Shown here in pieces: positions 6,567-44,040 of a stretch of DNA of 64,000 nt. A model generated the notes under the pieces. The model worked only from the letters and a program-made list of their open reading frames with translations, was not told the DNA's origin and ran no database searches. Both the position numbers and the translations under genes were made by a program. The DNA lies in assembly GCA_023213315.1 (NCBI GenBank), contig JAKCPI010005554.1:1-64000 (forward strand). Direction: 5' to 3'. Within the stretch, counting starts at the first letter, position 1, and every line of letters begins with the position of its first letter. This DNA comes from Euborellia annulipes (Eukaryota > Arthropoda > Insecta > Dermaptera > Anisolabididae).

Positions 6567-6815
6567 ACACTAGGTTATGTGTTTCAAGGGTTTTTATTAA
6601 TTAAAATTAAAATTAAATTAACTTAATACGTATTTCGACATTACTGTCATCATCAGAAGTGGTTTTCTAAAATGAATATAATAATATTGGTATTGTCGAA
6701 ATACGTATTAAGTGTTAATTTTAATTAATAGAAAACTTTGAAACACATAACCTAGTGTATTTTGCCTTTCATATAAACATAATGTTTCAACTTGAGCCTA
6801 CGGTAGAAAGTTTAA
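6567..6815. mobile_element. Inverted-arm element with hammerhead-like core (family A)
   Basis: The left arm starts ACACTAGGTTATGTG and the right arm mirrors it, ending CATAACCTAGTGT at 6758. Sequence after it to about 6815 is shared with other copies. The left arm contains an almost complete hammerhead-like fold, and the right arm keeps only the CGAAATACGTATT part. Related copies are at 54.9, 56.9 and 61.3 kb. No target duplication was found. Confidence 0.65.
6621..6660 (-). ncRNA. Hammerhead-like ribozyme candidate (family A)
   Basis: On the minus strand from 6660: ACUU, CUGAUGA (6656-6650), an extra U (6649), GACA-GUAA-UGUC stem-loop II, GAAA (6636-6633), UACGUAU, then U and AAGU. Stem I is ACUU with AAGU (4 bp). 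Stem II is 4 perfect pairs. Stem III is 3 pairs (A-U, U-A, A-U) closed by a 2-nt CG loop. The predicted cleavage site follows U6625. The only departure from the type I consensus is the U before stem II. At 40 nt it is the most compact copy in the window. Confidence 0.55.
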
Positions 6816-7157
6816 ATCTAATATTAGGGTGATGTTTTGAAAATATTTTAAAATTTATACTATGGAAATCAATGAGTTTAAAAATAAAATTTCGAAAATT
6901 CTCCAAGTGTACCATTTTCACCTATATATCAGTGAATATAATGAAAATGAAGATGATACATGAGTTCCCTTCACCTTGGATGATAAAATATTTAAAAGAC
7001 TGCCAAGCAGTAATTAATAATCTCTCAGTTAGCGTTATTTTTGTCATTATGTTTGAGAAAGAGAAAGAGAGAGATGAGATGAGAGGGAATATATTTAGTA
7101 AACCTGGGTGAGGAAAGAGGAATTGGTTTGCGTTGCGTCACTCAGAGGATGCTCAGC

Positions 7158-7643
7158 TCAGTTGAGGCATTCGAGATCTAAGTGTAAGAGTGTGCCTTGC
7201 AGAGCTTCTAAAATCCTCTTCTGCACAAGCGCCTTAACTGGACCAGCCAATAAACCGTTCAGTTGTGTGATGAACCGAGGGGTTTGCATTTTAATATTCA
7301 GCTTGGCGTTATCCATATGCCTAAAAACAACGTAATCAATTTCAAAGTAACAGTTGGCGCTTCTAGGCTCCCGCCATTTGATCAGAACTTCGAGCATGTT
7401 GAGAGGCGCAGTGATCAATAAATTATCCATAGATGTTTGAGATTCTACATAAAATAACTTGTCAAAATGCACGTTGATTTCATGAACAAAGAGCCAAGCA
7501 CTCAGCACTAAATCATCGTCGAGCTCTGCTAAGGTGATAGAGCCTATCCTTATTAATCCAAAAGGTTCCAGAGTGCCATTCAGAGCTTTCGCATTTACTA
7601 CTCTATTCTCTAACTTGAGACCGAAATCAACCAACTTTTCCTT
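7158..7643 (-). CDS. Exon 4 (last) of the group-7-like gene
   Basis: The acceptor is TTGCAG before AAG GAA AAG. The exon encodes 161 residues, from KEKLVDFG to LHLDLECLN, then stop. It forms the second lipid-binding-like half, with a conserved-looking LNGLLAGPVKALVQ helix near the C-terminus and one sequon (NGT). Confidence 0.8.
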   Translation of the reverse strand, partial: KEKLVDFGLKLENRVVNAKALNGTLEPFGLIRIGSITLAELDDDLVLSAWLFVHEINVHFDKLFYVESQTSMDNLLITAPLNMLEVLIKWREPRSANCYFEIDYVVFRHMDNAKLNIKMQTPRFITQLNGLLAGPVKALVQKRILEALQGTLLHLDLECLN

Positions 7644-10600
7644 CTGCAACACAAAAAAAAATTCCAAATGATATTAATAATATAAAATATAAGGGTAGGT
7701 TTGTAGACAACTAACTAATAATAATAAAAATTTTGTTATTAAATACGGATAAATTTTTAATTTGATTATATTTAATAAAAAATTTTTCTCCACGGACATA
7801 GATACCGAATATAATAAAAATTCTTTCCAGCTTCTTTTAAACAACAAAATCAAGTATTTATCCAGAGTGAATAAATCAAACAAAGTGAAAGACAGTGGAC
7901 CACATGGTTGACAGAATCATCTCAGGTTAGGTTCAAGTGGCTGTTCTCAGAAAACACATGCCTTTAAGGCACTTTCATGTATATTCTCTAAAAACAGGCG
8001 TTAAAATTTAAAATAAACAAATGGGTGTTAAAAAGTAATTTTAAAAACAATCAGCGTTAAAAAAATGCTATTCACTTCCTTGCCTCAAATAGCTATTCTG
8101 TAAACAAAAATTTAAAGCCGAAGAGTTAACATTTAGTAAATAGTGTTAAAAATTATTGCCATGTCTAGAGGGTGCCTTTAATATTTTAACGTCGTGTTTA
8201 AAATAAACATGGCGTCCTTAACCTAAAAAGTAAGGTTATGTTTTTGATAGCTTTGAAATAAAAGCAACAAGTTAACATCGCTTTTAAAATTTTGTTTAGA
8301 GAATAGCATTTTTTTAACGCTGATTGTTTCTACATTAATTTTTAACACCCATTTGTTTATTTTAAATTTTAACGCCTGTTTTTAGAGAATAGACCTGTTT
8401 GTGAGATTATCTCCAACTTACATTACCTACCTCAGGAAGAAACATTGACAATTTTTTACGGCAAGCGGGATTTGAACCCGAACTGTTTTTTTCAAAAAAT
8501 TTGTAATAATTTGTATTAAAATTTAATTTAAATACTGATGTATACCTACATGTTATTTATATATTTAATATTTATGTTTATTTTTATATTGAAACTTGAC
8601 AACTAGTTAATAAACATTTAAATTTCTTATTAAATCTATTATATATATCTATTATATTTCATATTAAATCTATTATTATTATTTCAAGGAGCAGTGGCTG
8701 AATCATTAATAACGAGGAGACCAAGGCAGCCGAAAGCAAATAAAGAAAAAATATTCTTCTTTTTCCGCTTTATTTAATACAAATGTCGACGTTTCGGCCG
8801 ATTCTTCCGGCCTTCATCAGGACAAATGTTATGTTACCTCAAGCTTAGAGGGGCTCTTGGCAACTCCTGACCTTCTGACATTCGTCAGATAGCATGACTT
8901 CTGGTCAAGAGTGATCTAAGCTCGAAACAAACATTGCATATATCCTGATGAAGGCCGGAAGAATCGGCCGAAACGTCGACATTTGTATTAAATAAAGCTG
9001 AAAAAGAAGAATATTTTTTTTTATTTACTTTCGGCTGCCTTATTTTTTCTCATTATTAAATATATTATATAAACATTAAATTTTTCTCGATACATTTTTT
9101 TTTAATCATTAATTTTTTGAACATTTTCGAAATTTTTAACAAAACTAATTGGAAAGTAGAGCTAGATAATATAAATATATTTGTTTAAAAAAAAAATGAT
9201 TTAATTTACCTTGAACATTTTAATTTCTTTTTCAAATGAGTTCATGAACATGTCTCCAAAATATTCCAAAGATGTCAAAAAACCATTTTTATAATTAATA
9301 TAATGATGCAAATACTGATAAGGAATTATTTCTGACAAAGACAATGTATCAAGAGCTTTATTCAAATAATCTAATAAGAAATTGTTCATTTGATAGACGA
9401 ATTCACTGAAGAAAGTCTCTGCGAGGGAGCCTCGAATCGACTCAGTTGTGTAGCTATCATTGACGAACTTTTTTCCGATATAGTAGCTGACATTCGCCCT
9501 TACCTGGAAAAGAAAATTCAAAAAGAATAAACTATAAAAATTTTTCATAGACACATCTATTTTATTATACATATCAACGTATGTCATGCGTATGAAAATA
9601 AATAAAAATTTATTGAAAAAATTAACAATTTGAATAAATTTTACAAATAGTTTTCAAAATTCATTAAAATCCTTAATCAAAATATAATTATATTTTAGTG
9701 CAGCATTTCCCAAATTTTTTTGACAGCGGCCCGGTACGAGTTTTTAAATTTTTCGAAACCCATCTTATAAAAAAAAAAAATTTATTTACAAACAAATTTT
9801 ATTTTTTAATAAAAATCAAGTTTATTTCATACATTTTGCAAAATTTTTCTACGATCCGGTGCAGGGTCACGATCCCCACTTTGGGAAACTCTGTTTTAGC
9901 CTATTTAATTAAAGTTAAATAATTTTCGAGATCTATATATTGCATTTGAATAAGATATTAATATTCAAAAAAAAAAAAAAAAAAAACATTTCTAAATTTT
10001 TAATTAAAGGTGAATTTAAAAAATTGGTCCCTGGCCTATGGCTCAGAGGTAGAGAATTGGCTTCTGATTCCAAAGGTCGAATGTTCGCATCCTGTCCTAG
10101 GAGAAAAAATTTATTTCAATTGAATAGGATACCATTCAATTGAAATAAATTACCTCAGATGCCGAAAAAGACCTTAAACATCTTTCTTTTTCAAAATCTT
10201 GGGAGGGGGGTAAATGTTCCCTTCCCTCCCCACAACTTAATTTACTGATCAGGCGTCATTTTTTTTTTTTTTTAAATGAACTCTAAATCTATCTAATAAT
10301 AGACTTTTTCTTTTAAATTTGAAATGGAGGCCCAAAGACATGAAACCAAGCAGAAAGAACAGGAGTAAGAGAAAAATAAAAGGATTATTTTAAAATTTAT
10401 AAGTTAACTTCTTTCTTTCCTTTTTTCATTGTATTTTATTTGCGAACAGTTCTTATTTTTTTTTTTTTTTATAAATTAATTAATATCTAATAAAATTTAG
10501 AAAAATGATCATCGTACCAAGAGGCAAGACCTTTACCTCTGCCCACAACCATAGGCGCCGGAACTGGGGGGGGGGGGGCAAGGGTACATGCCCCCCCCCC

Positions 10601-11470
10601 TGGCATCCTCTAGGAGGGGGCAGGGGGGCAAAATTTCTTCTTTTATTTTATTTATTTTTAAAAATGATACATTTTTACTTTTGAAAAATAAAATCTAATT
10701 TAAAAAAAATTAAAAGAGTAAGAAATTCATTTTTTTCCAAAAATTTTTTATAAAATCACTACCAAATTTTTTAAAATTTTATTTTATTAAAATTGTGATT
10801 TTATTTAAAATTTTTAAACTTTTATAGTAGATTTGTTTTTGATTTGTACTATTTGAACATATTAAATTATTTTAATTTTCTAAAAAAAATTTTTTTGCCC
10901 CCCCCCCCCTGATTCAAATTCGTTCCGGCGCCCCTGCCTACAACCCAGGAACAAATCTACATCTTAAAATTGTATTGTATATAAATTATAAGGAAATACC
11001 TCTTCTGGTTTATATTCGAAATTGGCATGATTAGCAATGAATTTGTCATTCTCGAATTGGAAGCCAAAAATCCCGGAGACGACGAGATCAATGAGTTCCA
11101 AAGTCAAATTACCAACGTGACTTTCTCCATATTGGCCATATAAAATTATCTTGGTTTTGGCTGTTCGCAGCATCAGGTTGAATAAATAGAAATCCACCTG
11201 AAAGCCAGCCTGGATCAAGGAATAAGGGTCCAGATGTACTGAGATGTTGCTTAGCCTCTCCCCGGTGCCTTCAACATCAGTGTTGAAGAAGATATTATCT
11301 AAATGGATGTCCCCTTGGTAGGAGTTGATTTCGAGGCGCTGTTGAACTGCTTTGATAAATTTATATTCGCTCTTTCTCATAAAATAAAATAAAGAATTGG
11401 GTAGGGCAGGCGTAAGCGGCCTCGACCAGCAGCAGAGAGGTGCTAGCAGAACCAGTAGGAAGCGATACAT
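7158..11470 (-). CDS. Secreted two-half group-7-allergen-like (TULIP-type) protein
   Basis: Exons are 11486-11000 (initiator ATG at 11470), 9503-9210 and 7643-7158. All have AG/GT borders and phase-0 junctions, giving 416 aa before the TAA stop. Residues 1-16 or so form a signal peptide (MYRFLLVLLAPLCCWS). The mature chain has two similar halves: amphipathic strand-rich segments followed by a helix-rich stretch. This is the layout of the mite group 7 allergen, takeout and JH-binding family of lipid-binding folds. Five N-glycosylation sequons (NIS, NLT, NVS, NDS, NGT) fit secretion. Single-domain group 7 proteins are near 200 aa, so 416 aa suggests a tandem form. The family call rests on overall pattern, not a signature motif. 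The ligand is unknown. No clear poly(A) signal follows the stop. Confidence 0.7.
7982..8391. mobile_element. Foldback/MITE in intron 3
   Basis: Arms of about 90 bp start TATTCTCTAAAAACAGGCG on the left and end with its reverse complement on the right (8299-8391). Sequence between is AT-rich without a frame. Target duplications are not clear. It lies in the intron between the exons ending at 9210 and starting at 7643. Confidence 0.7.
8457..8490 (-). repeat. tRNA-like 3' remnant
   Basis: The minus strand reads CGGGTTCAAATCCCG, a perfect T-arm with a B-box-like core, followed by CTTGCCGT. No D-arm or anticodon arm lies upstream, so it is a tRNA or SINE fragment rather than a working tRNA gene. 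Confidence 0.4.
8779..8829 (-). ncRNA. Hammerhead-like ribozyme candidate (family E, left arm)
   Basis: Minus strand: CUGAUGA (8820-8814), an extra A, then GGCCG pairs CGGCC (5 bp), GAAAC (8795-8791) and GUC (8790-8788). Stem I pairs GACA with UGUC, then after a 2-nt internal loop UGU with ACA. The stem III bases ACGU are palindromic with no loop, so stem III could form only between two molecules. Confidence 0.5.
8941..8984 (+). ncRNA. Hammerhead-like motif (family E, right arm)
   Basis: It has the same core as the left-arm copy: CTGATGA 8945-8951, an extra A, the 5-bp stem II, GAAAC 8970-8974, GTC. Stem I is weaker (G-C, A-U, then a mismatch), so this copy has probably lost function first. 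Confidence 0.4.
9210..9503 (-). CDS. Exon 3 of the group-7-like gene
   Basis: The acceptor is TTTCCAG before GTAAGGGCG and the donor is CAAG/GTAAAT. The exon encodes 98 residues (VRANVSYYIGKK to FEKEIKMFK), mostly helical by appearance, with sequons NVS and NDS. It closes the first half and leads into the second. Confidence 0.8.
9701..9893. mobile_element. hAT-type MITE, 193 bp
   Basis: The ends are CAGCATTTCCCAAA and TTTGGGAAACTCTG, the common CAGTGGTTCCCAAA type. Flanks TTTTAGTG and TTTTAGCC match in 6 of 8 positions, a decayed target duplication. It sits in the intron between exons 2 and 3 of the group-7-like gene. Confidence 0.7.
10030..10190 (+). repeat. tRNA-derived SINE
   Basis: The head has an A-box-like TGGCTCAGAGGTAGAG and a B-box-like ATGTTCGCATCC at tRNA spacing, so internal pol III promotion is plausible. 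The tail has a palindromic TTTCAATTG tract and ends GCCGAAAAAGACCTT. Tail-only copies lie at 314-411 and 18045-18135. Confidence 0.65.
10550..10936. mobile_element. hAT-type MITE, 387 bp (family with 48090-48475)
   Basis: The ends are CATAGGCGCCGGAAC and GTTCCGGCGCCCCTG, with flanks CCCACAAC and CCTACAAC (7 of 8). Long G and C homopolymers lie just inside each end. A 386-bp copy of the same family, in the other orientation, is at 48090-48475. Confidence 0.85.
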
Positions 11471-11486
11471 GTTGCAAGCTGAATAT
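11000..11486 (-). CDS. Exon 2 of the group-7-like gene (signal peptide)
   Basis: The acceptor TTTTTTTTTAG precedes ATATTCAGC and the donor is GAAGAG/GTATTT. It carries 16 nt before the ATG at 11470, then 157 codons including the signal peptide and the first strand-rich segment (NIS and NLT sequons). The 16-nt leader has no stop and is in frame with an ATG in the proposed upstream exon. Confidence 0.8.
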
Positions 11487-11951
11487 CTAAAAAAAAAATA
11501 TTTTTCAAATAAAAAAAGTCTCTTTTAATTTTAAGTAGTCTGTTTCGACAAAAAAGTTATCACTAAATTATATATCAAATAGAAACATCATCAGGTCGAT
11601 AGAATTTAAGAAAATATTTTCAAATAAAAACTGCTACAAATAAATAAAAATATTTAATTATTATTCATACCCTCTAAATTCTGTCATTTTATTTTAAAAT
11701 GATTAATGAATGATGCAGGCTCATCTTATACAAATGAATTTCTTTCATTTCTATATTTTTAAATTTATTATTGTATAAAATTTTCGCTGAAAGATATTAT
11801 ATAAATCTAATTTAAAAATGCAAAAAGTATTTTGTAAAAAAATTATAACTATCTGCATATTTTTAAGGAGTGTTGCCATAAAAAACCAAGATAATATAAA
11901 ATTAGAGCCGCTTTAGAGAACATTTTCTATTAAAGTTTTATTTTCTCTATA

Positions 11952-12163
11952 AAGGGGCGGATTAAAGGGCGATCGCCCCCCCCCCCCGAGAAGAAATTCA
12001 AAAAGTTATAAAAACTTGTATTCTAAAGAAATTATGATTTCCGCTCTTTAATTTCAATTGAATTTGTTACCAATCAATTTAAATAAATAAGACGACAAAA
12101 TCATTAAATAAAAAAAAAAAAAACGCCCCCCCCCCCCGACAAAATTGCATTAATCCGCCCCTG
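11952..12163. mobile_element. hAT-type MITE, 212 bp
   Basis: The inverted ends are AAGGGGCGGATTAA and TTAATCCGCCCCTG, with an exact 8-bp duplication TCTCTATA at 11944-11951 and 12164-12171. C homopolymers lie at both subterminal positions. It is inside intron 1 of the group-7-like gene. Confidence 0.9.
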
Positions 12164-12409
12164 TCTCTATAGCTCTAAGATCTGACTTAATTGGGCGAAA
12201 GTAATGGCCTTTTTAGAATCAGCGCTACCCAAATACCCAGGAATAGCTTCAAATACTCGGTCAACAAAGTCTCTGTTCCCCTGTGATATTCTCCACGAGG
12301 TCGTCTTTTATATATTTTTAAAGGGAGGTGGATATAAAAAAGAAGAAATTGATTTGAAGTCTATTAGAAAATATATTTCTTTTTGTTAAATATTATATTT
12401 AAAATGAAA

Positions 12410-13020
12410 AAAATCTGGTGTGACATGCACAGAACACAACTTTCGATTACCGAAGGTAAGAGAAAGTTGTGTGCTATGCTAGTCACACCAGATTTTTTGT
12501 GTCAAGATATATATCTAGTTTCAGCCAATATATTAGAATTCAAGATGTCAAATTTATAAACACGGGAAAATATTTGTATGGCAACCATTGCCCCTATCTT
12601 TCCTATGAAGTACAAGAGTAAAGTGGCCTTCAAACAATTTTGAGAGCAAAATGAGAATATACATTTTAAAAAGCATCTAAAAACTAATTGATTTTTGAAT
12701 TTTAATTAAAATCGTTATAGCGAATTTTGAGAAAATCGAAAAAAACTGAAAAAGTACATCAGTAAAGAATTAGTACTTTTTGGCTTATTTTGTTTAAAAG
12801 CTTATTTTCACACCTCACGAGGCTACCTAACTTAAATATAAAATTTCAACCTCCTAGCTCAATTCCTTCATTCTTTAAATTGAACACAGACAGACACACA
12901 CACACACACAGACAGACCACGTTGCGAAAACCACTTTTTTGGATTCAATGGACCTCAAAACGTGTATATCCATCAAAATCTCGACATCGAATTTTTGACA
13001 TGAATCCTATACTTTCTCTA
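12410..13020 (+). repeat. Hairpin-headed dispersed repeat (family L), copy 1
   Basis: It opens with an imperfect palindrome at 12412-12497 bounded by ATCTGGTGTGAC and its complement. A body follows that ends near ATACTTTCTCT at 13020, with a CA/GACA microsatellite at 12888-12917. Other copies are at 40978-42005 (plus), 39731-40060 and 42852-43170 (minus), with fragments at 4.1 and 43.5 kb. No protein is encoded. Confidence 0.75.
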
Positions 13021-13239
13021 AATAAAAAAAAAAAAAATTATTTCCAAATTCGATTAAAAAAGAATAAAAAATTTTACTATATGAATAGGCTAATGAGGTT
13101 TTGTTTGGTTTATTTTTAAAAACCCAAAATCTTGTATTATTTTTTCATCAATTAAATTAAAAAAAAAAATAATAATAATACAAATTAAGACAGTTTAATA
13201 AACACACTTCATAGTTAGAAAAAATTTGTCACGACTTAC

Positions 13240-13330
13240 TTTTTCATTTTGTTGCTGCTGCTGTGGTCCACTCGTTACTCCTTGAAAACACCTGACTAAA
13301 TGACGCTTAACCACTTGACTAAACTACTTA
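13240..13330 (-). other. Probable 5' exon of the group-7-like gene
   Basis: On the minus strand, AACAAAATGAAAAA is followed at once by a consensus donor, GTAAGT (13239-13234). Joined to the acceptor at 11486, the ATG at 13247-13245 reads MKKYSACN and continues in frame into MYRFLL. Both ATGs have A at position -3. If used, the upstream start lengthens the protein by 8 residues and adds two lysines to the signal-peptide n-region. The 5' limit is not defined by sequence. Confidence 0.5.
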
Positions 13331-13340
13331 GGTCAGGTTT

Positions 13341-14150
13341 GCATAAAGTGACCCTTTCTCCCTTCCACTAGGCGCTCTCTTTTGTCTCTTTCGTTTTGAA
13401 AGGCGCCTTTTGTCCCTTAAATTTTTGGTTTTTCCCGAGACCAATAGAACAGGTGTCAACGTATTTAGACAACACTCATTCTTAGAAATCAGTTATTTCC
13501 CCTGACCATAAATTAAATGAGCTTTTTAGTTGACTTTAGAAACTTCCGCTATTATATTTGTTCTCACTAAAGTGATGAGAAATATTTTTTCTTTACCCTA
13601 TTTTAAATTTCCCATAATGAGAGAATAATTTCAGGCGAAATTCAAACAGGGGGACTGAGATGGATTAGACGATTTTTAAAATCAGGGAGACTTGAAAACA
13701 TGCCTGGTGGAAATTTAAGAATTTTTTTTTTTTTTCAAATTATCAAGTATTGATTTATTTGTGTGAAATAAATATTATTTTAATAATTAATATGTTATGT
13801 CTGGTATGCGGAATTTTTTTTGGGGAGAGGCATGGTTGTATCCAGCTTAAAACAGGAGGGGAGGGCAAATTCAATCTCTATCATGGAGCAGGGAACTCCC
13901 CTGATAGAGGATGTTAAATTTTTTTTTTAAAGTAAACACAAATAATTTTTTTTTCATTTTATTATCTAATACTAATAATTTGATAACATCACAGTAGTGA
14001 TCTAAATTGTTCTAATATTCTCACAGATGGCGTGAATTTTTCAGTTTTTTATTTATATTTTTTTTTGTTATTTCAAGTTTGGAAAGGGGGCTGCTGCCTT
14101 CCCTTGACCTGGATGGGGGGAGGGGGAGAGATGTTTGTATATTCCAGACA
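13341..14150. other. Intergenic AT-rich DNA upstream of the group-7-like gene
   Basis: It includes the presumed promoter side of that gene (about 13260-13400), which is less AT-rich. I see no TATA box at a fixed distance. G-rich patches at 13850 and 14110 may be decayed hAT ends. Confidence 0.35.
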
Positions 14151-14162
14151 ATTACCTCCCAC

Positions 14163-14684
14163 CAAGTGCTGATACAAGGGGGGTAATTACCCCCCCCCCC
14201 CTCCCGAGAAAAATTTTTTTTCTTGGAAATTAAATTTTATTTTTAATATAAAATTTCCATGTCCTTCCATTATATATATATAATTCATTGTATTGTTGAA
14301 TTTATATATAAAAATAATCGTATATTATAACGATAAACTATATAGTTTTTTAAAAATTTATAATAAATGTTTGTATAATTTTCTCTTAATCGTAGGCCCT
14401 GAAGATGATTGGATTCCGATCGAAACTTGTTAACAGTCGGCCACACTGAAAAACTAAAAATAAAATTAAATTATTTTTTAATTGAAATTTTATTTAAACA
14501 TATATATTATATATGCATCAAATAGCTTGACCTTCACCATCAAGTTAGTCCTATTCCTTCAAACTTATCAAGTAAATATAAAATTTTAATTACCGAAAGT
14601 AAGAGAAAATTGTGTGTTGTACGACCAGTCACACCAAATTACCTCCCCCCCTCTCCGCGAAAAACTCCTCTGGATTCGCCCTTG
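14163..14684. mobile_element. Degenerate hAT-type MITE
   Basis: The left end CAAGTGCTGATACAAGG and right end CTGGATTCGCCCTTG match the CAAGGGCGGATACAG ends of the elements at 37262 and 48916. GGTAATTACC and a C homopolymer follow the left end. Flanking 8-mers agree poorly (4 of 8). It encloses the hammerhead-like motif at 14395-14442. Confidence 0.55.
14395..14442 (+). ncRNA. Hammerhead-like ribozyme candidate, all three stems present
   Basis: Order: GGCC (14395-14398), CUGAAGA (14399-14405), an extra U, GAUUGG-AUU-CCGAUC stem II (6 bp with one G-U), GAAA (14422-14425), stem III CU(U)GU-UA-ACAG with U4 bulged, cleavage triplet GUC (14436-14438), GGCC (14439-14442). Stem I is GGCC with GGCC, 4 G-C pairs. 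This is the best monomeric fold in the window. The unpaired U between CUGAAGA and stem II is the only break from the consensus core CUGANGA/GAAA. Confidence 0.55.
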
Positions 14685-23300: not shown

Positions 23301-23318
23301 ATTCATTATATATCAGTA

Positions 23319-32580: not shown

Positions 32581-32713
32581 GATCTAATGTATGATTGCTG
32601 TTTCGGGCATCGGTTGAAGAATTCTCTGGTTCTTTTCAAAAACAAAAAAATAAAATTGCAAAATAACACCAATTTCTGAATTCTGAAATTCACTGGTTAC
32701 TGGTTTCAGAGAG

Positions 32714-33015
32714 GGATTTAACTGGAGAAATAAAACAGCAAAAAATTTTTCAGGAATCGCCTTATACCATATATTTGCAAATTTCGGCCGGCCTAACGTC
32801 TGGCCATCTTCAGTGCAGGATATAGTTCTTTGGCGATCCTTCGTCTGATGTCTTAAATTTTTGCATGAAGAGAGGAGGGGAAGACGAGCAATCAAGTGTT
32901 CGTTCGCGATTCGTGAATAGCCGAAGAACTATAGCCTGCACTGAAGATGGCCAAAATATATGGTATAAGGCGATTCCTGAAATTTTTTTGCTGTTTTATT
33001 TCTCCCGTTAAATCA
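32714..33015. mobile_element. Inverted-arm element with hammerhead-like core (family J)
   Basis: Arms at about 32714-32837 and 32921-33015 share GAGAAATAAAACAGCAAAAA, TGCAGGATATAG and the hammerhead-like core. The right copy has lost stem II (GATGGCCAAAATATATGG). The arms face outward. No target duplication was found. Confidence 0.6.
32767..32818 (-). ncRNA. Hammerhead-like ribozyme candidate (family J)
   Basis: CUGAAGA (32813-32807), an extra U, GGCC with GGCC stem II, GAAA (32785-32782). A perfect 4-bp stem III follows (A-U plus three U-A pairs) with a 2-nt GC loop, and the cleavage position is A32772. Stem I is poor in this copy. Confidence 0.4.
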
Positions 33016-34382: not shown

Positions 34383-34390
34383 AAAAATAT

Positions 34391-34982: not shown

Positions 34983-34994
34983 AAAAATATATTG

Positions 34995-35517
34995 TTATTA
35001 TGGGAATTTTTAATTATAGAACACATTTTGTTATTAATTATTTATTAAAAATATAAATACTGTACAACGTTTCGACTACTTATTCTGCAGACGTTTTCAA
35101 GTAATGTACGCTTGATCAGATTCAAGCGAACTACCCTCTAAGGTTTGATTATTGTATTAGGCCTATATTTATGGAATAATTTAATAATATTATTTTATTG
35201 CATCTTTGTCAAATATCATATTAAAAAAACTTATTTTAATAATCATGCTTTTTATGTAAACACTTGATTTAATGAGTGTCTAACTTCATGGGTATGATTG
35301 TATATAGTGCTAACTTCACATAGGTGTCCCTTAGAGGTTAGTTTGCCTGAATCGGAGCAAGCGCACAGTACTCGAAAAAGACTGCAGAATAAATAGTATA
35401 GTAGAATAGTTACAGTATTTATATTTTTAATAAATAATTAATAAAAATTTGACTTATAATTAACTACTCTTCTAATAAGAATAATACAAACCAAAAAAGT
35501 TTTAATAAACATATTCG
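34995..35517. mobile_element. Penelope-like inverted-arm element (family H)
   Basis: An exact 14-bp target duplication TGAAAAATATATTG lies at 34981-34994 and 35518-35531. Inverted arms carry TTAATAAATAATTAATA and the hammerhead-like core near their inner ends. Beyond the right arm is an extension of about 35 nt with AATAATACAAACCA, which recurs beside the copy at 63.5 kb. Long variable duplications, inverted arms and a one-sided extension are typical of Penelope-like elements. No reverse transcriptase is present. Confidence 0.6.
35063..35103 (-). ncRNA. Hammerhead-like motif (family H)
   Basis: Core UUGAAAA (35100-35094) stands in for CUGANGA, then one extra C. Stem II GUCUGC with GUAGUC has five pairs and one mismatch. 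GAAAC is at 35073-35069, then GUU. Stem I is GUA with UAC. ACGU is palindromic, so stem III would need a dimer. Confidence 0.35.
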
Positions 35518-35531
35518 TGAAAAATATATTG

Positions 35532-36677
35532 ATGTGGAGGGGGAGGGGGCGGGGTGGGAGGGAATCGCTAAGGAGGTACAAACCCCTCCCCCCACTCTGC
35601 AAAATTACTGCTTGATATTATTTATTTTTCCTAATTAATTTAATTAATCAAGAGTGAAAAACTTTTTTTTTAATTATTTATTATTTTGACAAAAAGTTTG
35701 ATTAATTATACTAATCGTAGCAAAATTAAGGATCTAATAATTCAATTTTCAGATGGTGATTAAAAATAACAAATATTTTTTCTAATAAATAGTAGAAATT
35801 AAGAAAAAAGTTTTTTCATGCTTGAATAATTATACTAATTGATGCAAAATTATTAAATATTTCCTCCATTTTATGAACTTGGACTTGGCTTTAATATATT
35901 ATTAGACAACAAAATAACATGTAAAACACTTTGTAGTACATACGTCTAAGATGGAGAGAGTGCCCGTTGTATAATTATAAACTATATTATGTTTCTTAAT
36001 TAATGTAAAAGAGCTATTTTATGATTAAAGAAGAGGTTTACTAATCACTATGATAAAAGTATAATTGATAATGCTTTCATTTACTTTTAGAAGTCATTAC
36101 AAATTTTCTGGTACTTATTCCCTAAGTTTGTTCAAAAGAGAAAAATGTCCCTAAAACTTTTAAGATCTCCTTTTATTTCCCATTCAACAGGATTTTTGTC
36201 TTCTTTGAAGATCGAGCTTTTAGTTTGAAGGGAGGGGCTTTGTATATACTGTAGAAAAGAAACAAAAGTAAAAAATGCCAAGAAGGGGTGGGGGTGGAGT
36301 TTAATGTGGCCATGATTATCGAGAATAAATTTTCTTAAATTTTAATATCACAAAATATTTATTAAATTAATCTTTTTGGATAATACATAAATGTTTATAG
36401 ATTTTCATTTAGCAAACAACTACCGATGCATTAAGATTAAATAAACAAAGATTTTAAGGAATGTTTATGATAAAAATAAACAAGTTGAGATATGACAAAA
36501 CTCTATTGGTTCAATTGTTTTAATTAATTCTATTTATTTTGTATTGTTTTCATTTCTAATCTCAAGTTGAGAATTAAAAAAAAAAAAGGTAACAACCTAA
36601 TTAATATTTTTTATACTCTTTAAATATTCCATGTTAAACAAATTATTGTAGAATTAGGTCCATTTAACCAAACAGAA
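35532..36677. other. AT-rich intergenic DNA
   Basis: Nothing beyond short G-rich patches at 35535-35560 and 36230-36300 is recognised. Confidence 0.4.
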
Positions 36678-37261
36678 TGATTTTTATAAATGTCGATGAG
36701 AGAAGTGGCTGTTAAATAAAAGGGGAGGATGTCAGCCAAACACAAGAGCCTCCATCGAATGGAAATCCCACGTTTCGGCTTTAATTAAATCACATCATCA
36801 ATTCTTATGAGTGGAAACGAGTATAAATAAAAAATTTTTACAAATGTTGTTAAAACCAATTGTAATATTATGGGGCGTATGGATTATTATCTGATGAAGG
36901 TGAGTCAACACATATAAATGTCTGGTGGCAGAGAAATATTATATAAAAACCCTATGGACAAAGGGCGCTTAACTACCATACTTAAGCATATAGGACCTGA
37001 TCCTCAGATATAAATATTATAATTGATAAATTGTTTTTTAACATCATTTGATATTATAAATTAATTAAATTAGAATATGATCATTTGAAAATAAAAAATA
37101 TATATTCTCAAAGAGGTCAAGTGCACGCTTTTGAGATTTACGCTTTATTAATATGTATTATAGATCAATGTTCTTAGCGAGATTTGTTTCTCTAAATATT
37201 TATATTATATTGATTGTATTTTGATAAAATTTTTTATATATATTTGAGAGCATACAAGAAC

Positions 37262-37517
37262 CAAGGGGGGATACAGGGGGTGGTAAATGGGGTAATTACC
37301 TCCTCCTCGAGATTTGAAAAAATACTTTTTTTTGAAATAAAATTTTTTTTTTTTTAAAATTTTTAAAAAATTTTTTAAAAAATTTTTTTTTTTTTTTTTT
37401 TTTTTTAAAATTTTAGAAAGTGCGTTTTTTTTAAATAAATAAAAAAAAAAAATTTTTGGGTGTGGGAAAACACACAAAATTACCCCCCTCCGAAAAACAC
37501 CGCTGGATCCGCCCTTG
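37262..37517. mobile_element. hAT-type MITE nested in family G, 256 bp
   Basis: The ends are CAAGGGGGGATACAG and CTGGATCCGCCCTTG, with flanks ACAAGAAC and TCAAGAAC (7 of 8). The interior is dominated by A and T homopolymers. Confidence 0.85.
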
Positions 37518-37965
37518 TCAAGAACTTATGTACACTGAGCCCCAAAGTTAAGTTCCACTCATGGGTTTTCTACTTGTGATTATTTCATTGATTTTATAAA
37601 AGAAAATGAAAAACTTTATTGGAAATTTTCTAGGTTTGAACCATGAAAGTTTCCATTAAAAAATATATAATATTTTTTAAAAACAATGAAATAATATCAA
37701 GTAGAAAACGCATGGGTGGGACGTAATATTGTCCCTCACTGTACATATCATCGTTCTATAATATAAAGCTCTAGCAAATAATTTCCATTATGTTCCTGTT
37801 TACAACTCCCTCACGCTGATTGGTCAGAGACAGAGCAAGTTGAGTCAGAGAGGGAAATTTAAAATTTCCAAACAGTGAGCAAGAATAAATTAGAAGACTG
37901 ACCATATTGTAAGACATTATTTTTATGTTGTATTATAATTTTTATTTTTGCTCATTTCAGCTCAT

Positions 37966-38011
37966 AAGAACTGATGATGGCGTTATTTAATTAAAGCCGA
38001 AACGTTTTCTT
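37966..38011 (+). ncRNA. Hammerhead-like ribozyme candidate (family G, right arm)
   Basis: AAGAA (37966-37970), CUGAUGA (37971-37977), an extra U, GGC...GCC stem II (continued by U-A pairs after one mismatch), GAAAC (37999-38003), GUU, UUCUU. Stem I is AAGAA with UUCUU, 5 bp. ACGU leaves no hairpin loop for stem III. The left-arm copy (about 36769-36815, minus) has UUGAUGA and GUG and looks inactive. Confidence 0.45.
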
Positions 38012-38090
38012 TTATTGGGATTTTCATTTGGTAGAAGCTATCCTGTTTGGCTGACATCCTCTCCTTTTATTAATCTGATTTTTATAAATG

Positions 38091-39530
38091 CATACCTTCA
38101 TGGACAATAATATAGCTAAAATAATGCAAAATTTGTTTTTATGTAAACGAAAATAAATATTTTAGAAATGGGTTTATATATTTTCTAGGAGGTTTGCGCG
38201 ATTAGGTTTATGAGAAGGTCGGTTGAGTCGCGTTGTTTGTTGAGATTTACTCGACGTTTCGGCTCTTCTTTTGAGCCATTTTCAAGAGTATTGGGCCAGG
38301 AGGGGGTGGGTTTGTTTTCGGGGTCGCAGTCTTGCTGGTGTCATCGGGTGCTGGATTTGCCTTTGAGATCCAGGAACAGCTAATAGTAGATCCGGTCTTT
38401 AATGGCCAAATTATTTTCACAGATATTCAAAAAATACTTTTAGGTTTATTTGTAGTGGTTTTTCTGGTGTTTTAGCAGGATGGAACGTTGGAGAGGAGTC
38501 AAACTTCTCATTTCTTTTTCGGGTTAACGACGGATGCATCCCTTTTGTTTCGGCCTTCTTTTAGTAAGTTCCTGCAATTCAAGATATCTGAATATCAAAC
38601 AACTATAATATAAAATACTTATATTATATAGGCCTACAGAAAAGCTTTTGAGAAAAACCAACGCGAGGAAAATTATTATCGAATTTCTTAACTTAATTGA
38701 TTAATTCAAAGATTCTTCAGGTTTGTTAATTAAACAGAAAAGAAAAATTTAATTTAATTAATTCTACATAAAATAAAATTCTAAGGAGAGTTTTTGAATT
38801 CGAATCTATGTTTCGTATTTCCATTTAATTAATAAATTATAGAAAAGTTTATTTTATTAGTAATTTTCCTAGTTGAGTAGTAATAAATAATAATACTTCT
38901 CTTAACCTTGAGTTTAGTGATTCATCATTTACATATAGATACTTTTTTTTATTTTTTAATGGAGAAACGCTAAGTTAAGATACAATGTAAAGTCGAAGAG
39001 GAGCTAAAGAAATCGATCTCAAAAAGAAGGTTTCAGTTCTCATTACACCCTCTCCTACGACACACCACCTCCCTTAAATATAATTTCTTTACTCGAATGG
39101 AGACGGGGAAAAGTGTCAAAAATGGATAATTTTTATATAGATAGGAAGCAGGTCTGATGAGGGAGAAAAAAAGCAGGAGAGACAAGTACTGGAGTAAACG
39201 TAATAAAGCGAAAACCTTTTTTTTTTTTATAAAAGTAATACACATCTTGGAAAAAAATGTTTAACCTTGGAATATTAGCACGTTTTAAGATCTCCTGTTA
39301 CTGAAAAAGTGACCTCATTGATGTGTGTCTGTTTGCCTCTCTCTCTTTTCTTAATGTCTGCGGGTTTTGAAGCTAAAAATGCGCGTCAAACAATTCATTA
39401 CAAATTATATTTATATGTATTGAGTGGAGTGATGCCGAAAAAGTAAGTCAGGGTGGATTTATTCTAGGGTCTACAGTATAATGTAGAAATATAATTAAAT
39501 TATTTTTGCAATATTATTCGGGGTAGGCGC
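38091..39530. other. Intergenic DNA, partly GC-richer
   Basis: A GC-richer part at 38195-38400 holds the motif at 38248-38290 and is otherwise unrecognised. The remainder is AT-rich; a poly(T)-containing frame near 39033 is a chance frame. Confidence 0.35.
38248..38290 (-). ncRNA. Hammerhead-like motif with 5-bp stems I and II
   Basis: UACUC (38290-38286), UUGAAAA (38285-38279) in place of CUGANGA, an extra U, GGCUC with GAGCC stem II (5 bp, 7-nt loop), GAAAC (38260-38256), GUC, GAGUA (38252-38248). Stem I is UACUC with GAGUA. Both stems are perfect although the core strand has diverged, so pairing is kept better than the catalytic bases. Confidence 0.4.
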
Positions 39531-39595
39531 TAGTTTAAACATAAATAATTTAACAATAGTTAAATGTAAACACACTGGGTTTAGTTTAAAAAAAG

Positions 39596-39641
39596 AAGTT
39601 TTATGTACATTTCGATGTTAAAACATAATCATCAGAACCTT
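39596..39641 (-). ncRNA. Hammerhead-like ribozyme candidate (family C, left arm)
   Basis: CUGAUGA (39635-39629), an extra U, stem II AUGUU-UU-AACAU (5 bp after one mismatch), GAAA (39613-39610). Stem III is A-U, U-A and G-C with a 2-nt UA loop, and cleavage is after A39602. Stem I AAGGUU with AAACUU has five of six pairs. All three helices can form in a monomer. Confidence 0.5.
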
Positions 39642-39665
39642 ATTACAAATAATGTAATGTAATAA

Positions 39666-39713
39666 GGTTCTGATGATGATGTTTTAACATCGAAAAGTAT
39701 ATTATACCTAAAT
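39666..39713 (+). ncRNA. Hammerhead-like motif (family C, right arm)
   Basis: CTGATGA 39670-39676, an extra T, a perfect 6-bp stem II GATGTT-TT-AACATC, GAAA 39692-39695. Stem III has four pairs (GTAT with ATAC) but a mismatch next to the core. Stem I has two or three pairs. Confidence 0.4.
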
Positions 39714-39730
39714 AAAACTTCCTTTTAAGA

Positions 39731-40060
39731 GAAAGTATTGGATTCATGTCAAAAATGTTGAGATTTTGATAGAAATGAGGTTCCCAGAGTCCATAAAAGT
39801 GGGTCCCGCAAAATGGTCTCTGTGTGTGTGTGTGTTCAATTTAAAGCACGAAGGAATTGAGCTAAGAAGTTGAAATTTTATATCTAAGTTAGGGACCACT
39901 TTGAGGCGTGAAAATAAGCTTTTGAACAAAATCCGTCAAAGAGTACTAGTATATACCGATGTACTTTTTCAGTTTTTTTTATTTTTTCGAAATTCGCTAT
40001 AACCATTTTGATTAAAAATCAATTATTTAGATGCTCTTAAAAGCCTCAAAATGGTTTTAA
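39731..40060 (-). repeat. Family L repeat, minus copy
   Basis: It begins GAGAAAGTATTGGATTCATG and contains the (TG)n microsatellite and the AAATTCGCTATAACC block. These are reverse complements of the body at 12.6-13.0 kb. The hairpin head is absent. Confidence 0.65.
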
Positions 40061-40069
40061 ACACTCTTT

Positions 40070-40320
40070 CAGTGGCGTCATTTGTGGGGAGGGGGGGCAG
40101 GGGGGTCATTGCCTCCCCCCCCCCCCAAGGGCTCTGAAAATTTTATATTATTCTAGATAAAATCTTTCAAAATTTATCTACGAGTATATAAACTGTAGAG
40201 AATTAAACAATTAATTAAATTAAATATCTTTTGGCTCAACTTGAGTACATATTTGTAAGTAAATTTTAAGAAAAAAAATGTTTGCCCCCCCCCCAAGAAA
40301 AAGTTGAAATGACGCCACTG
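40070..40320. mobile_element. hAT-type MITE, 251 bp
   Basis: Ends CAGTGGCGTCATTT and AAATGACGCCACTG are near-exact inverted repeats, with an exact 8-bp duplication CACTCTTT at 40062-40069 and 40321-40328. G and C homopolymers are subterminal. It interrupts the family L copy that precedes it. Confidence 0.95.
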
Positions 40321-40339
40321 CACTCTTTACTCTTGTACT

Positions 40340-40970
40340 TCTAATGTTGTTTACTTTTAACTATTGTTAAATTATTTTAATTTTTTAAGAAGCACAAGCC
40401 TTATAAGTGGGAAAAGACTCGTATGAAAAAAAGAGAAATAATCCCACTCTTCTAGCGACTTTTGAAGTTTTGGATTTGTTTTTTTTTTTTTTTTTTTTAT
40501 AAATAAAATAGGAATGAAAGACCTGGCAATGCGGGAAGTCTCACGATTAAAGGAATTCATCGAGCTATCTTGAGGGCTGCTATGCAAGAAACACTTCAAT
40601 TATTTTTGACATTTAATACACTACGTCGCTGGGTACATGCAAGGCTCTATCCAAAGTCTCAAGATAATGTGAATCCCCTGATCAAATCTTAAAACAACCT
40701 GAACAGTGCGAAGTAATTAATAATTAAATAAATAAATTACAATTAATTTGGTTGAGGTATCAATAAATAATTTATAATCTATTATTATAAATAAAATATT
40801 TTATTCATTATAATTTAAATTAATTCATTGGAAGGTATCCAGAGCCGTATTTTCTTGTTTGCGTGTTGTAAGAGTGAACGAGGGTGAGGAGAGGAATGTT
40901 CTATCAAAAGAGAAAGAGAACTGCTAAAGGTCCTTTATACAATATTTTATAAAATAAAGCTTTATTATAA
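40340..40970. other. AT-rich DNA with poly(T)
   Basis: It contains a long T-tract at about 40480-40499 and an unrecognised segment around 40500-40700. A 75-codon minus-strand frame there is broken by the T-tract and shows no domain. Confidence 0.3.
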
Positions 40971-40977
40971 TAAAAAT

Positions 40978-42005
40978 AAATCTGGTGTGACTGGCGCACA
41001 GCTCTTACCCTTTGGTAAGAGAAAGTTGTGTACCGTGCATGTCACACCAGATTTTTTGTTTTTAGTTTCCGGCGATATATTAGAAATTTATAAACATAAA
41101 AAATTTATATTTTTTATTAATTAATTAGATTGAAAAAAATTAATTAGATTATATTTTATATTTATATTTTGTTACTAAGGCAAACATTTCTCTTTCCTAT
41201 GACGTACAAGAGTAAAGCGTGCTTCAAACAATTTTGAGAGCAAAATGAGAATATGCATTTTAAAGAGTATCTAAAAAATTATTGATTTTTGAATTTAAAT
41301 CAAGATTGTTAAAGTCAATTTTGAGAAAATCAAAAAAAGTGAAAAAGTAGTACTACACTGTAAAAAAAAATCTTAATTTTAGTGTTTTTGAATACTAAAT
41401 TTACAAATTTCCCTTGTAAATGATATCAACTATGCATTTATCTACTAAATTTACAAATGTATGCGTTCAAATATTTACAACAAACATTTTAAAATTACAA
41501 TTTTCTTCGAAAAATAGAGTATGTATTGTAATTTTACAAACATTGTATAGTATTTTTCGTTAAAAATTGTATTTTTTCTCGAAAGCAGTTTAGGAATTCT
41601 AAAATTATCACAAATTTACACTCTAATTTTCAAATGTCATTCTAAAATTACAATACATTTTCATTCTAATTTTCAAACGACTTTCGAAAATTACAATACA
41701 TTTGTAAATGGTTTTTGCAAAGATTACTAAATTTAGTATGTTTTTGTGTAGGAAATATGCTTCCTAAACAATTGTAAAATTACAAAATTTTTTTTTACAG
41801 TGTGGTAATTTTTGTCCGATTTTGTTCAAAAGCTCATTTTCACCTCTCGGCGAGGTGCCTAACTTAAATATAAAATTTTAACCTCGTAGCCTTCATGCTT
41901 TAAATTGAACATACAGTGGGACCCACTTTTTTGAACCTCAAAACATGTATTTCCATCAAAATCTCGACATCGAATTTTTAACATGAATCCAATACTTTCT
42001 CTCTA
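40978..42005 (+). repeat. Family L repeat, copy 2, with an insertion
   Basis: The hairpin head at 40981-41053 is bounded by ATCTGGTGTGAC and its complement, with a perfect inner stem CTCTTACC/GGTAAGAG. The body matches 12.5-13.0 kb and is split by an inverted-repeat element at 41356-41802. Confidence 0.75.
41356..41802. mobile_element. Inverted-terminal element in family L, 447 bp
   Basis: The ends CACTGTAAAAAAAAAT and ATTTTTTTTTACAGTG are inverted. The interior repeats AAATTACAA-type motifs many times. The break in the host repeat marks the insertion, but the duplicated target is short or unclear, so the superfamily is undetermined. Confidence 0.65.
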
Positions 42006-42499
42006 GATAGTGAATTAAATATATAGGTAAGAGGAAGTAAATATTCTTATGATTAACTAATGGACAATTAAGAAATTCATGGCCAAGATAAAATATTATA
42101 ATACATGTGTGAAAATATAAATTTATCCCAATTTCACATATAAACTCATATTTAATAATTATCCTGTATTTATGTCATTGTAAGAATGAGAGATAAGATT
42201 GGAAAAAGTCCTTGACCGTGTCTTTAAAGAAATAACTTTTATTTGTATTTCAAAAATAAATTGAATAAATAATTTCCTATTTGATGGGAACTTGGGTCAC
42301 ATTTTCAAATTGTACTAGAAGATGAACTAAAAAATAAAAAAGAAGAAAAAAAAAACAAAAGGAAAAAACTTGGTGGAATAAGAATGTAAAGGCAAAGGAA
42401 AGCAAGCGATTGGCATTGTCATGTAATCGGATTCATGGTTGATTTGAAGGAGAACGAAGCAACAACTGCTGAGAAAAAAAGAAGAAAAAAAAAGAAACA

Positions 42500-42780
42500 A
42501 ATGCCGGTCTTTCACGTGTCCAACACGGATATCTGCACGTGTTCATGTGTGTCCATGTGTGTCCGTGTGTGTTGATGATTCATGTCTGACCGCGGAAGCC
42601 GCAGCTGTTCGAATCTCTCGAGACGAGAATTCGAATCGAATCGAATCGAATCGACTCATATCATCGTCTAGTTCATTAACAAAAGTGACCAACCATGGTA
42701 TCATAAAGATACCTGGAGGGGAACAGGACTTCATAAACGCTCGCTATTATTCGATACTATCCTTAATTAATAGCTAAGCT
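42500..42780. other. GC-richer block with (TCGAA)n
   Basis: TGTGTGTCC repeats and a four-unit GAATC run at about 42630-42650 are embedded in unique-looking sequence. Short frames are open on both strands without a domain. It may be a regulatory island. Confidence 0.25.
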
Positions 42781-42851
42781 CATGCCTTTTGGTGTTCAAG
42801 AACAATTTAAAACAAAAAAAGCTTAGATAAATTTTTACTTTCTCTTATCTA

Positions 42852-43170
42852 TATGAGAAAGTATTGCGATCAAGTCAAAAATTCGAAGGAAATACACGTT
42901 TTGAGGTTCCGTTAGTCCAAAAAAAGTGGGTCCCGCAAATTTGTCTATGTGTGACGATTTGAAGCATGAAGGAGGTTGAAATTTTATATTTAGGTTAGGT
43001 AACCTCCCGGACAGTGAAATAACTTTACTAAATTACTTTTTTTAGTTTTTTCGAATTTCTCAAAATTCGGTGATTGATAAAATAAATCAACTATTTTGAG
43101 ATGCTCTTTAAAAAGTAGTATATAAATAAGTTTTTTCTTAAAAGGTGTTTGAAGTACACTTTATTCCCAA
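42852..43170 (-). repeat. Family L repeat, minus copy 2
   Basis: It contains GAGAAAGTATTGCGATC, GTGGGTCCCGCAAA and the GAAATTTTATATTTAGG block, reverse complement of the family body. Confidence 0.6.
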
Positions 43171-43189
43171 TGGAAGCATTTGTAGCTCA

Positions 43190-43560
43190 GTGCCTCAACA
43201 AAGGCGGAGCCCGAGGGGTTTTTCGGAGGGGGGATCTGGGGTGCTCGTCACCCCACATTATTTTTTTTAATTTTGAAATATAAAAACAACCTTTTTTACT
43301 TTTGGAAAAAAAAATAAAAATAAAATTTTTAATTTATAATTTTTATTTTTAAAATTTAAAAATAAAATTTTTTAAAAAGTTTTTTTTTTTTTTTGGGGTT
43401 TCTTTTCCCCCTCCCCCTCCCCTCCCCTTCTAAGAAATGCAAGTGGTCAAGTTTGGAACTAAGCTGCTATGGGAAATTAAATATAACTGGTATCTCGATA
43501 ACAAAAAATCTGGTGTGACACCGTTGCTGTGCTGTGCGTTAGGACACACAACATTTTTTT
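43190..43560. repeat. Decayed element ends and a family L head
   Basis: CAAAGGCGGAGCCCGAGG near 43198 and a C-rich tract near 43407 look like a worn hAT copy. From 43435 the family L start (GCAAGTGGTCAAGTTTGG) and half of its hairpin (ATCTGGTGTGACACC) appear. Confidence 0.45.
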
Positions 43561-43995
43561 AAATTTTATATAAAAATAGACTTAAATTTTATTTTTGCCA
43601 AATTATAATTGCAAAACAAAATTTTAAATTTAATTTAAACAATTTCCACCCAGACCTTTCCAGTGGTACCAACCAAGATTTTCAAAAATCGGAGATTTCG
43701 AAAGAAAAAACCCGGAGATTCCAAAAATTTTCTATTCAAAATTCATATCATTTTACAAATTTTTTTTTTAAAGTAAATTTTACCTTAATTACTTAAATGA
43801 CTCCATTTTTTTCTATGCGAAACTCATTTGACATCATTACATTTCACACATAGACGCTTTCAATCTTGGTCGGCGGTGAGGGCTGTTCACACACTGTAAA
43901 GATAATATAATTGTCTAATTTATAAATACTATGACAATATATGTATATTTTCGTTGTGTACAATAAAAAATATTCATCTATCATTCAACAATTAA

Positions 43996-44040
43996 TTCGT
44001 CCTGAAGATGGGAGCGATGCGTTCCCGAAACGTCGACGAA
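43996..44040 (+). ncRNA. Hammerhead-like ribozyme candidate with 6-bp stems I and II
   Basis: UUCGUC (43996-44001), CUGAAGA (44002-44008), an extra U, GGGAGC-GAUGC-GUUCCC stem II (6 pairs, one G-U), GAAAC (44027-44031), GUC (44032-44034), GACGAA (44035-44040). Stem I UUCGUC with GACGAA is perfect. Stem III would be the palindromic ACGU, loopless in a monomer, so activity would need a dimer. Confidence 0.5.

Follow-up and report, generated by a model that had tools for sequence, protein, structure and literature searches.

The hammerhead ribozymes of Penelope-like elements (PLEs) are described as minimal and as having no assigned role. According to the primary reports (Cervera and De la Pena 2014; Lunse, Weinberg and Breaker 2017), which are known to us through the papers that cite them (PMC7761336, PMC7229834, PMC6466107), PLEs and Terminons carry minimal type I hammerheads, for which dimeric cleavage was reported in Lunse 2017 (via PMC6466107 and PMC7761336). 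In the current work, a stretch of 64,000 nucleotides (here named the window) representing positions 1 to 64,000 of contig JAKCPI010005554.1 from the dermapteran insect Euborellia annulipes (GCA_023213315.1) was analyzed, in which a series of repeats exhibits a hammerhead layout with one extra base between A9 and stem II (named “+1”, as opposed to “+0” for the canonical arrangement). As judged from their sequences, these loci are very probably pieces of the pseudo-long terminal repeats (pLTRs) of Penelope-like retrotransposons carrying minimal type I +1 hammerheads, formed by the mechanism proposed below; many of them are short copies without a coding frame.

Three described systems serve as reference. 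For the Poseidon element PAc of Anolis carolinensis, it is described in the accessible part of PMC11167929 that the open reading frame (ORF) opens where stem II begins, 26 nt ahead of the cut site, and that reverse transcription starts within an AC-rich stem-loop, at 111-118 nt of the ORF; a 30-40 bp tail is located between two internal start sites, and in vitro the Poseidon protein is able to cleave both strands and to extend them. For the bdelloid Penelope elements, the corresponding part of PMC3846280 describes inverted pLTRs, mostly in head-to-head orientation, several copies with target-site duplications of 8-10 bp, and a tail of ~31 bp that is optional on one inverted pLTR. Finally, the hammerhead of chrysanthemum chlorotic mottle viroid, CChMVd(+), contains an additional A between A9 and G10.1 which, as presented in the accessible part of PMC3705267, moderately reduces trans-cleavage, its replacement by U causing a 3-4-fold rise and its replacement by C or G being strongly detrimental.

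The motif CTGANGA N{6,30} CGAAA was found 11 times in the window, against a mean of 0.42 and a maximum of 2 in 100 dinucleotide shuffles. A register scan in which 0, 1 or 2 extra bases were allowed at equal stringency (exact core, stem II of at least 3 bp, GAAA) retrieved 10 sites, and in all 10 exactly one base separates A9 from stem II, in agreement with the constant extra nucleotide that had been noticed from the letters of the window (the sequence-only reading). These sites correspond to eight of the twelve loci listed by that reading, a decayed copy at 2875 and a minus-strand site at 58324 which is probably a chance match. Allowing one core mismatch with stem II alone produced a weaker contrast, the +1 register amounting to 15 sites against 6.4 expected from 40 simulated sequences, +0 to 8 against 6.9, +2 to 3 and +3 to 4; when a stem I of at least 3 bp was also required, +1 amounted to 6 against 0.6 and +0 to 1 against 0.45, while +2 and +3 gave none. 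The simulated sequences displayed similar counts in every register.

A covariance model (R1) was then applied, built from 18 copies on other contigs and none from the window; these training copies had been picked with the +1-U pattern, and relatives of the 43998 family were among them. With filters off, it recovered seven of the twelve listed loci at an expectation value (E) below 0.03, and the recurrent hammerhead-like layout stands. By direct reading, 35063 and 54922 are decayed and 39596 is mutated at base 10.1. R1 was not significant at 2871 (E 0.16), 6619(-) (0.83), 39666 (2.3) or 54970 (3.5), and 39596 and 35063 are missing from its 17 window matches at E up to 5. Chance as the origin of the window motifs is rejected by the shuffles, the register scan, the simulations, the covariance model and a reversed-pattern control, the latter being given below.

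The conservation of pairing was assessed on 58 distinct hits from pattern-chosen loci and the window, which were reduced to 17 families and for which stem I was outside the selection. Stem I is paired at 58 of 68 positions, compared with 30.0 when partners are permuted (0 of 20,000 permutations reaching this value), and pairs 3 and 4 of stem II, also unselected, are paired at 28 of 34 positions compared with 14.9. A pair counter applied to the 17 rows, in which two of the eight pairs (GG/CC) are fixed by the search pattern, found 88.2% of cells paired (58.2% after shuffling), with double-sided changes numbering 43 (shuffled, 13.5) and the covariation score reaching 0.717 (shuffled, 0.155); the number of pairs with a change on both sides was not in excess over shuffles (235/500), and sliding the partners along the rows abolishes the pairing signal. 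The proposed covariation of stems I and II between families is thereby upheld, and the stem I pairings quoted by the sequence-only reading are present in the window sequence; its “many unrelated repeats” do represent many families, which are better seen as one superfamily than as unrelated.

With respect to the hammerhead consensus, the core CUGANGA and GAAA, the A15.1-U16.1 pair and a UH cleavage site are all present, stem II being separated from A9 by one extra base instead of following it directly. This is regarded as a variant and not as a ground for exclusion, because a natural active hammerhead, that of CChMVd(+), shares the same extra base. The fold and core letters are common to Rfam Hammerhead_1 (RF00163) and Hammerhead_HH9 (RF02275); the window nevertheless gave no match to any Rfam hammerhead family, even with the E limit raised to 10. 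A further Rfam search retrieved no hammerhead, which is weak evidence since the control genomes gave none either. Among 62 +1 sites from a scan that demanded a palindrome and a U-H site, stem III is ACGU in 55, AUAU in three and a longer palindrome in four, and H17 at the predicted site is C in 48, U in 11 and A in 3. Since ACGU is part of the search pattern, stem III offers no covariation test. In pattern-free copies, stem III was read as ACGU, AUACGUAU, AUUUGCAAAU or ACUAUAGU, some copies having no clear stem III, and in the PLE family of L256 and L260-L263 it was read as a 3-bp hairpin. A palindromic stem III without a loop is a helix that can be formed by two copies and barely by one.

The frequency of the extra base was determined by counting exact pattern matches across the 903-Mb assembly. 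The pattern CTGAWGA-T-GG..CC-GAAACGTY (extra U) was found 22,925 times and its equivalent with an extra A 7,808 times, and the pattern without an extra base (CTGAWGA-GG..CC) had 231 matches. The last pattern also catches an extra G, and many of its listed matches are by eye members of the same families carrying one (e.g., CTGAAGA-G-GGTTCAAACACGGAACC), the remaining ones looking like true loss of the extra base. Reversed versions of the three patterns had no genome match. The order at this position is U > A >> G, the counts covering U, A and, by way of the +0 pattern, G. A scan in which the register and bases 3 and 8 were left free, performed on 301 kb comprising fetched loci and the window (a sample largely obtained via the +1-U pattern), identified 33 hammerheads, every one of which is +1, with C3-G8 in 32 and U3-A8 in one (window 38285). 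Sites in the same material that are not matched by the +1-U pattern and that have a stem II of at least 4 bp were likewise +1 in 32 of 32 cases, the extra base being U in 21, A in eight, C in two and G in one. In the parts of the literature available to us, no more than 1-2 bases are inserted between CUGAnGA and the adjoining stems in known alignments (PMC10085705), a large screen discarded core-mutated matches or core-adjacent mispairs, many of which were in repeats (PMC3088659), and no published statement of a constant extra base in PLE hammerheads was found.

Hammerheads with an extra base were also retrieved from the viral contigs of IMG/VR, where the scans are biased by the patterns used, so that the ratio of 80 +1 to 25 +0 matches is not a rate. 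With the extra base left free, 58 of the 94 distinct matches listed form three stems, the base being U in 56, A in one and G in one. Near-matched patterns produced three-stem copies in 10 of 16 distinct matches (+1 U) and in 12 of 32 (+0); both forms are common in viruses. As indicated by the three-stem +1 copies, a hammerhead that is complete in other respects can accommodate the extra base, which looks selected for its identity. Among the viral loci, type I hammerheads in which A9 is followed by an extra U were recognised, by script or by reading, at L002, L004, L005, L008, L010, L011, L014, L019, L020, L112, L126 and others, some of them shortly upstream of a likely start codon. No Rfam match at gathering score was obtained in the 10 viral loci scanned, and in six viral loci only the copies without an extra base match, below that score. 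Several hammerheads are spaced along one viral contig at L114, L135, L142, L056 and L150, and at the first three of these +0 and +1 forms are adjacent with stem I sequences that are alike.

The association with PLEs was examined by means of the GIY-YIG domain, for which a Pfam search of the genome returned at least 118 matches (150 of 710 candidates being scored). Thirty loci were taken, from which L235 (G000:C21118:23440-23664) was set aside as a UvrC gene with the full bacterial domain set, situated on a bacterial contig representing a symbiont or a contaminant. Thirteen of the remaining 29 loci, several of which belong to one family as copies or as paired arms, have a hammerhead in their flanks, all +1 (U in seven, A in six): eleven of these are downstream on the same strand, that of L247 is upstream on the same strand, and L236 has one on the opposite strand only. 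A looser scan added hammerheads at L242, L253, L257 and L258. At L257 and L258 a +1 family with stem II GAUUCC..GGGGUC and AUAU replacing ACGU adjoins GIY-YIG-like stretches with a stop.

Domain content was inspected by a Pfam scan of five frames. The single frame of L242 contains RVT_1 at 29.0 bits (cut-off 29.6) and GIY-YIG at 29.6 bits (cut-off 22.6), and a +1 hammerhead with an extra A is located 418 nt after this reverse transcriptase (RT)/GIY-YIG frame on the same strand; its named relatives, among the 120 listed, are insect proteins, including one of 857 aa from Drosophila virilis with 34% identity, and point to an insect rather than to the arbuscular fungus that base composition had first suggested. 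L263 has RVT_1 at 35.5 bits, above cut-off, its GIY-YIG domain (31.3 bits) appearing in the genome search only and not being listed in the Pfam scan at E 0.01, and L238 and L239 have GIY-YIG without RVT_1. By reading, the region upstream of the L263 frame contains a complete inverted hammerhead that meets a plus arm truncated within stem II.

The arrangement of neighbouring copies provides a further link. Of the first 100 places listed for the extra-U pattern, those with a neighbour within 1 kb form 19 pairs, 18 in -/+ (outward-facing) and one in ++ orientation, the other places being single; among 100 places listed for the extra-A pattern all 13 neighbour pairs are -/+ (by eye), and the listing without an extra base contains two -/+ pairs and one direct run of three. 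Self-comparison of the loci established that the inverted repeats end at a fixed distance outside the hammerhead; for every pair but L218, 87-109 nt separate this end from the triplet A9-N-G. Some 20-30 nt inside the repeat end is TGGCTG (or TAGCTG, TTGCTG, GCTGG, and mutated versions), and directly outside it, on one arm only, is the complement CAGCCA (CAGCTA, CAGCAA, CCAGC). A conserved hairpin is delineated, its loop being ~90-110 nt downstream, within which one arm stops and through which the other continues as a tail; by eye from the printed arms, 17 of 19 pairs have a tail on exactly one arm. Target-site duplication was evaluated for these 17 pairs, whose flanks share a word of 10.6 nt on average compared with 6.0 for mismatched flanks, the word being at least 7 nt in 15 of 17 pairs compared with 29% of mismatched flanks (0 of 20,000 permutations as high). 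With flanks duplicated in this way, the simplest reading of each inverted pair is a single insertion. A single duplicated locus is probably represented by L223 and L224.

This inverted-pair architecture, with its tail and hairpin, goes beyond the sequence-only reading and ties the repeats to the PLE insertion mechanism. The PLE host which that reading had named is thereby borne out, given an RT and GIY-YIG frame, a hammerhead beside the ORF, head-to-head pLTRs with an optional tail, and a target-site duplication. The retrozymes named as the other host are not: metazoan type I retrozymes consist of small units repeated directly in tandem, whose hammerheads are canonical and have a stem III hairpin, and do not apply here because neighbouring units are almost always inverted, a possible array on contig C5140 being the exception. 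At that position (G000:C5140:26561-26819), three same-strand hammerheads exactly 113 bp apart form a direct tandem array reminiscent of retrozymes.

Within the window, several copies carry an extra U. The copy at 37967..38012 (plus strand; R1 E 1e-12) has stem I AAGAA/UUCUU, stem II GGC/GCC, stem III ACGU and a predicted cleavage site U^U, and that at 43998..44040 (plus; E 4e-11) has stem I UUCGUC/GACGAA, a 7-bp stem II, stem III ACGU and a predicted UC site, after which an AC-rich tail-like stretch was read; an identical core is present on contigs C15 and C16. Also with an extra U are 32774..32817 (minus; E 7e-6), with stem II GGCC/GGCC, the stem III palindrome AUUUGCAAAU and a decayed stem I, and 14395..14444 (plus; E 0.02), with stem I GGCC/GGCC, stem II GAUUGG/CCGAUC and a near-palindromic stem III. 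The +1 copy at 38247..38289 (minus; E 7e-8) possesses the core UUGAAAA, with stem I UACUC/GAGUA, stem II GGCUC/GAGCC and stem III ACGU, both stems I and II being intact and U3/A8 constituting a compensating core change. This replacement of C3-G8 by U3-A8 is seen at 38285(-) and 35101(-), the latter belonging to a decayed copy of the same core type at 35056..35101 (minus; direct reading, no R1 match) whose stem II is unconvincing; the swap is reported to be active in other hammerheads in the accessible part of PMC3088659.

Four inverted repeats of the window bear hammerhead arms (6567-6758, 8723-9041, 39598-39707 and 54851-55057), and in all four, as far as readable, the left arm is on the minus and the right arm on the plus strand. 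The element at 8723..9041, found by inverted-repeat search, contains the extra-A hammerheads 8782..8824 (minus; E 7e-9; stem I UGUC/GACA, stem II GGCCG/CGGCC) and 8941..8983 (plus; E 7e-7; stem I largely gone), and its left arm is extended beyond the repeat, at ~8678-8704, by a tail with CAGCC opposite GGCTG. The complete arm of 6567..6758 is the extra-U copy 6619..6660 (minus; E 0.83, below threshold), with stem I ACUU/AAGU, stem II GACA/UGUC and the stem III palindrome AUACGUAU, its right arm beginning within stem II by reading. A fold-back consists of two decaying +1 hammerheads, namely the left arm 39594..39640 (minus; direct reading), with the stem III palindrome AUGUACAU and a mutated base 10.1, and the right arm 39666..39705 (plus; E 2.3), which retains stem II GAUGUU/AACAUC and has lost stem III. 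The pair at 54851..55057 is decayed, comprising the minus arm 54922, mutated at G8, and the plus arm 54970 (E 3.5), and one decayed copy outside the previously listed loci is located at 2871..2914 (plus; E 0.16), with an extra C and stem III ACGU. Elsewhere in the window, positions 1188-1876 are occupied by a tandem array of seven 99-bp units with 98% matches.

In the mechanism that we propose for these elements, two transcribed units would pair via their palindromic stem III to generate a double hammerhead, which would cut after the UH site (ACGUH) and thereby process the PLE RNA, with the extra base bulging at the stem II junction and activity being preserved. The element protein would then cleave both strands of AT-rich DNA, reverse transcription would begin at each of the two ends within the loop of the hairpin, and the resulting pair of cDNAs would meet in head-to-head orientation where the 5' ends of the RNA lie.

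For the extra base, the sequence-only reading had offered a variant class and a shared decayed ancestor. In the latter case, a single canonical hammerhead would have gained one insertion and its remnants would have decayed with their structure no longer selected; several window copies are indeed decayed and one inherited insertion would yield the same extra base everywhere, yet stems I and II differ among 17 families while pairing far above permuted controls, and one intact copy has exchanged C3-G8 for U3-A8. The variant class is favoured because the extra base is near-universal across families with covarying stems, because U or A occupies the position far more frequently than G does, in line with what the viroid biochemistry would suggest, and because an extra U recurs in the three-stem hammerheads of viral contigs; we therefore regard the decayed ancestor as very improbable. 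Still less credible is a palindromic DNA transposon resembling a miniature inverted-repeat transposable element, whose motif would be a protein-binding site rather than an RNA. Inverted repeats with target-site duplications would suit such an element, but both strands of stem I flank the core inside one arm and covary, the core constants agree with the hammerhead consensus, the tail on one arm is unlike symmetrical terminal inverted repeats, and RT/GIY-YIG frames adjoin the same motif; we give this explanation almost no weight. A rather unlikely but serious alternative accepts the PLEs and derives the head-to-head pairs from self-primed reverse transcription on an antisense template instead of two-ended priming, as proposed for bdelloid Penelope in the accessible part of PMC3846280. 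In its favour are the palindromes at the inverted junction and the pairs at L218, L220 and L226, which are near-perfect palindromes throughout with 97-98% identity. The cleavage and extension of both strands by the Poseidon protein, together with two start sites, would instead predict two arms, both terminating at a site where synthesis started, and the single tail of each pair agrees with separate priming of the two ends.

Several observations weigh against the PLE reading preferred here or against parts of it. Twelve of the 29 GIY-YIG loci are without a flanking hammerhead by either scan, and no particular autonomous element is assigned to the short high-copy families. At the one ORF 5' end that was read (L265, of an extra-A family), the frame opens downstream of the hammerhead and not at its core, and a start at the hammerhead AUG was rejected for that locus. 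Among the pairs, L209 has no tail and L218 is ambiguous, L189 and L217 are without a clear target-site duplication (of 17 pairs examined), and an automatic stem score prefers other pairings in several arms. In the accessible part of PMC11167929, the Poseidon hammerhead cleaved only in the presence of protein, hammerhead mutants inserted normally in vitro and the hammerhead site coincided with neither the beginning nor the end of any read, self-cleavage of a PLE hammerhead at 3-25 mM magnesium being mentioned as seen earlier. Furthermore, the extra base need not improve the ribozyme, since the extra A of the viroid moderately slows trans-cleavage.

A broader proposition, to which we give slightly less than an even chance, is that hammerheads with an obligatory U or A form a coherent and very widespread core class common to animal PLEs and IMG/VR viruses, which has been mostly missed and in which the U couples ribozyme core and ORF start. 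Within this proposition, consensus screens and Rfam would mostly miss the +1 class because they demand stem II directly after A9, and one base would couple core and translation start since the extra U creates an AUG (A9-U-G10.1) able to start the PLE ORF. Irrespective of its fate, searches that forbid an insertion after A9 will miss these copies. One genome supplies more than 30,000 natural pattern matches in which the base preference at one core position agrees with viroid kinetics, so that whether the extra base is an adaptation can be tested directly, and the one-tail inverted pairs are a natural record of PLE insertion that allows two-ended priming to be tested against self-priming.

Both the ribozyme family and the element family are already known, and the comparison with published systems, limited to the parts of these sources available to us, defines what is particular to this genome. 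As in the PLE and Terminon hammerheads, of which thousands are dispersed in animal genomes and in PLE pLTRs and for which dimers have been proposed, the copies have type I order and a weak, missing or palindromic stem III; the difference is that here practically all copies carry an extra U or A after A9. The Poseidon hammerhead is likewise placed at the pLTR, and its register is compatible with A9-U-G10.1 acting as AUG, the distance to the cut site being 27 nt at window position 44002; in contrast to Poseidon, many copies here are short and lack a coding frame, the distance from the triplet to the end of the pairs is 87-109 nt (L218 aside), and the sole ORF start read lies further downstream. 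Inverted pLTRs, target-site duplications and a one-arm tail are shared with bdelloid Penelope, which has few copies compared with tens of thousands of motifs here and for which the word “hammerhead” is absent from the accessible text of PMC3846280. As read from sequence, the pair architecture is a close match to published PLE anatomy. Finally, CChMVd(+) (De la Pena and Flores 2001, via PMC3705267) has its one extra nucleotide in the identical place, the extra A being a deviation in a single viroid ribozyme, whereas in this genome an extra base is the rule.

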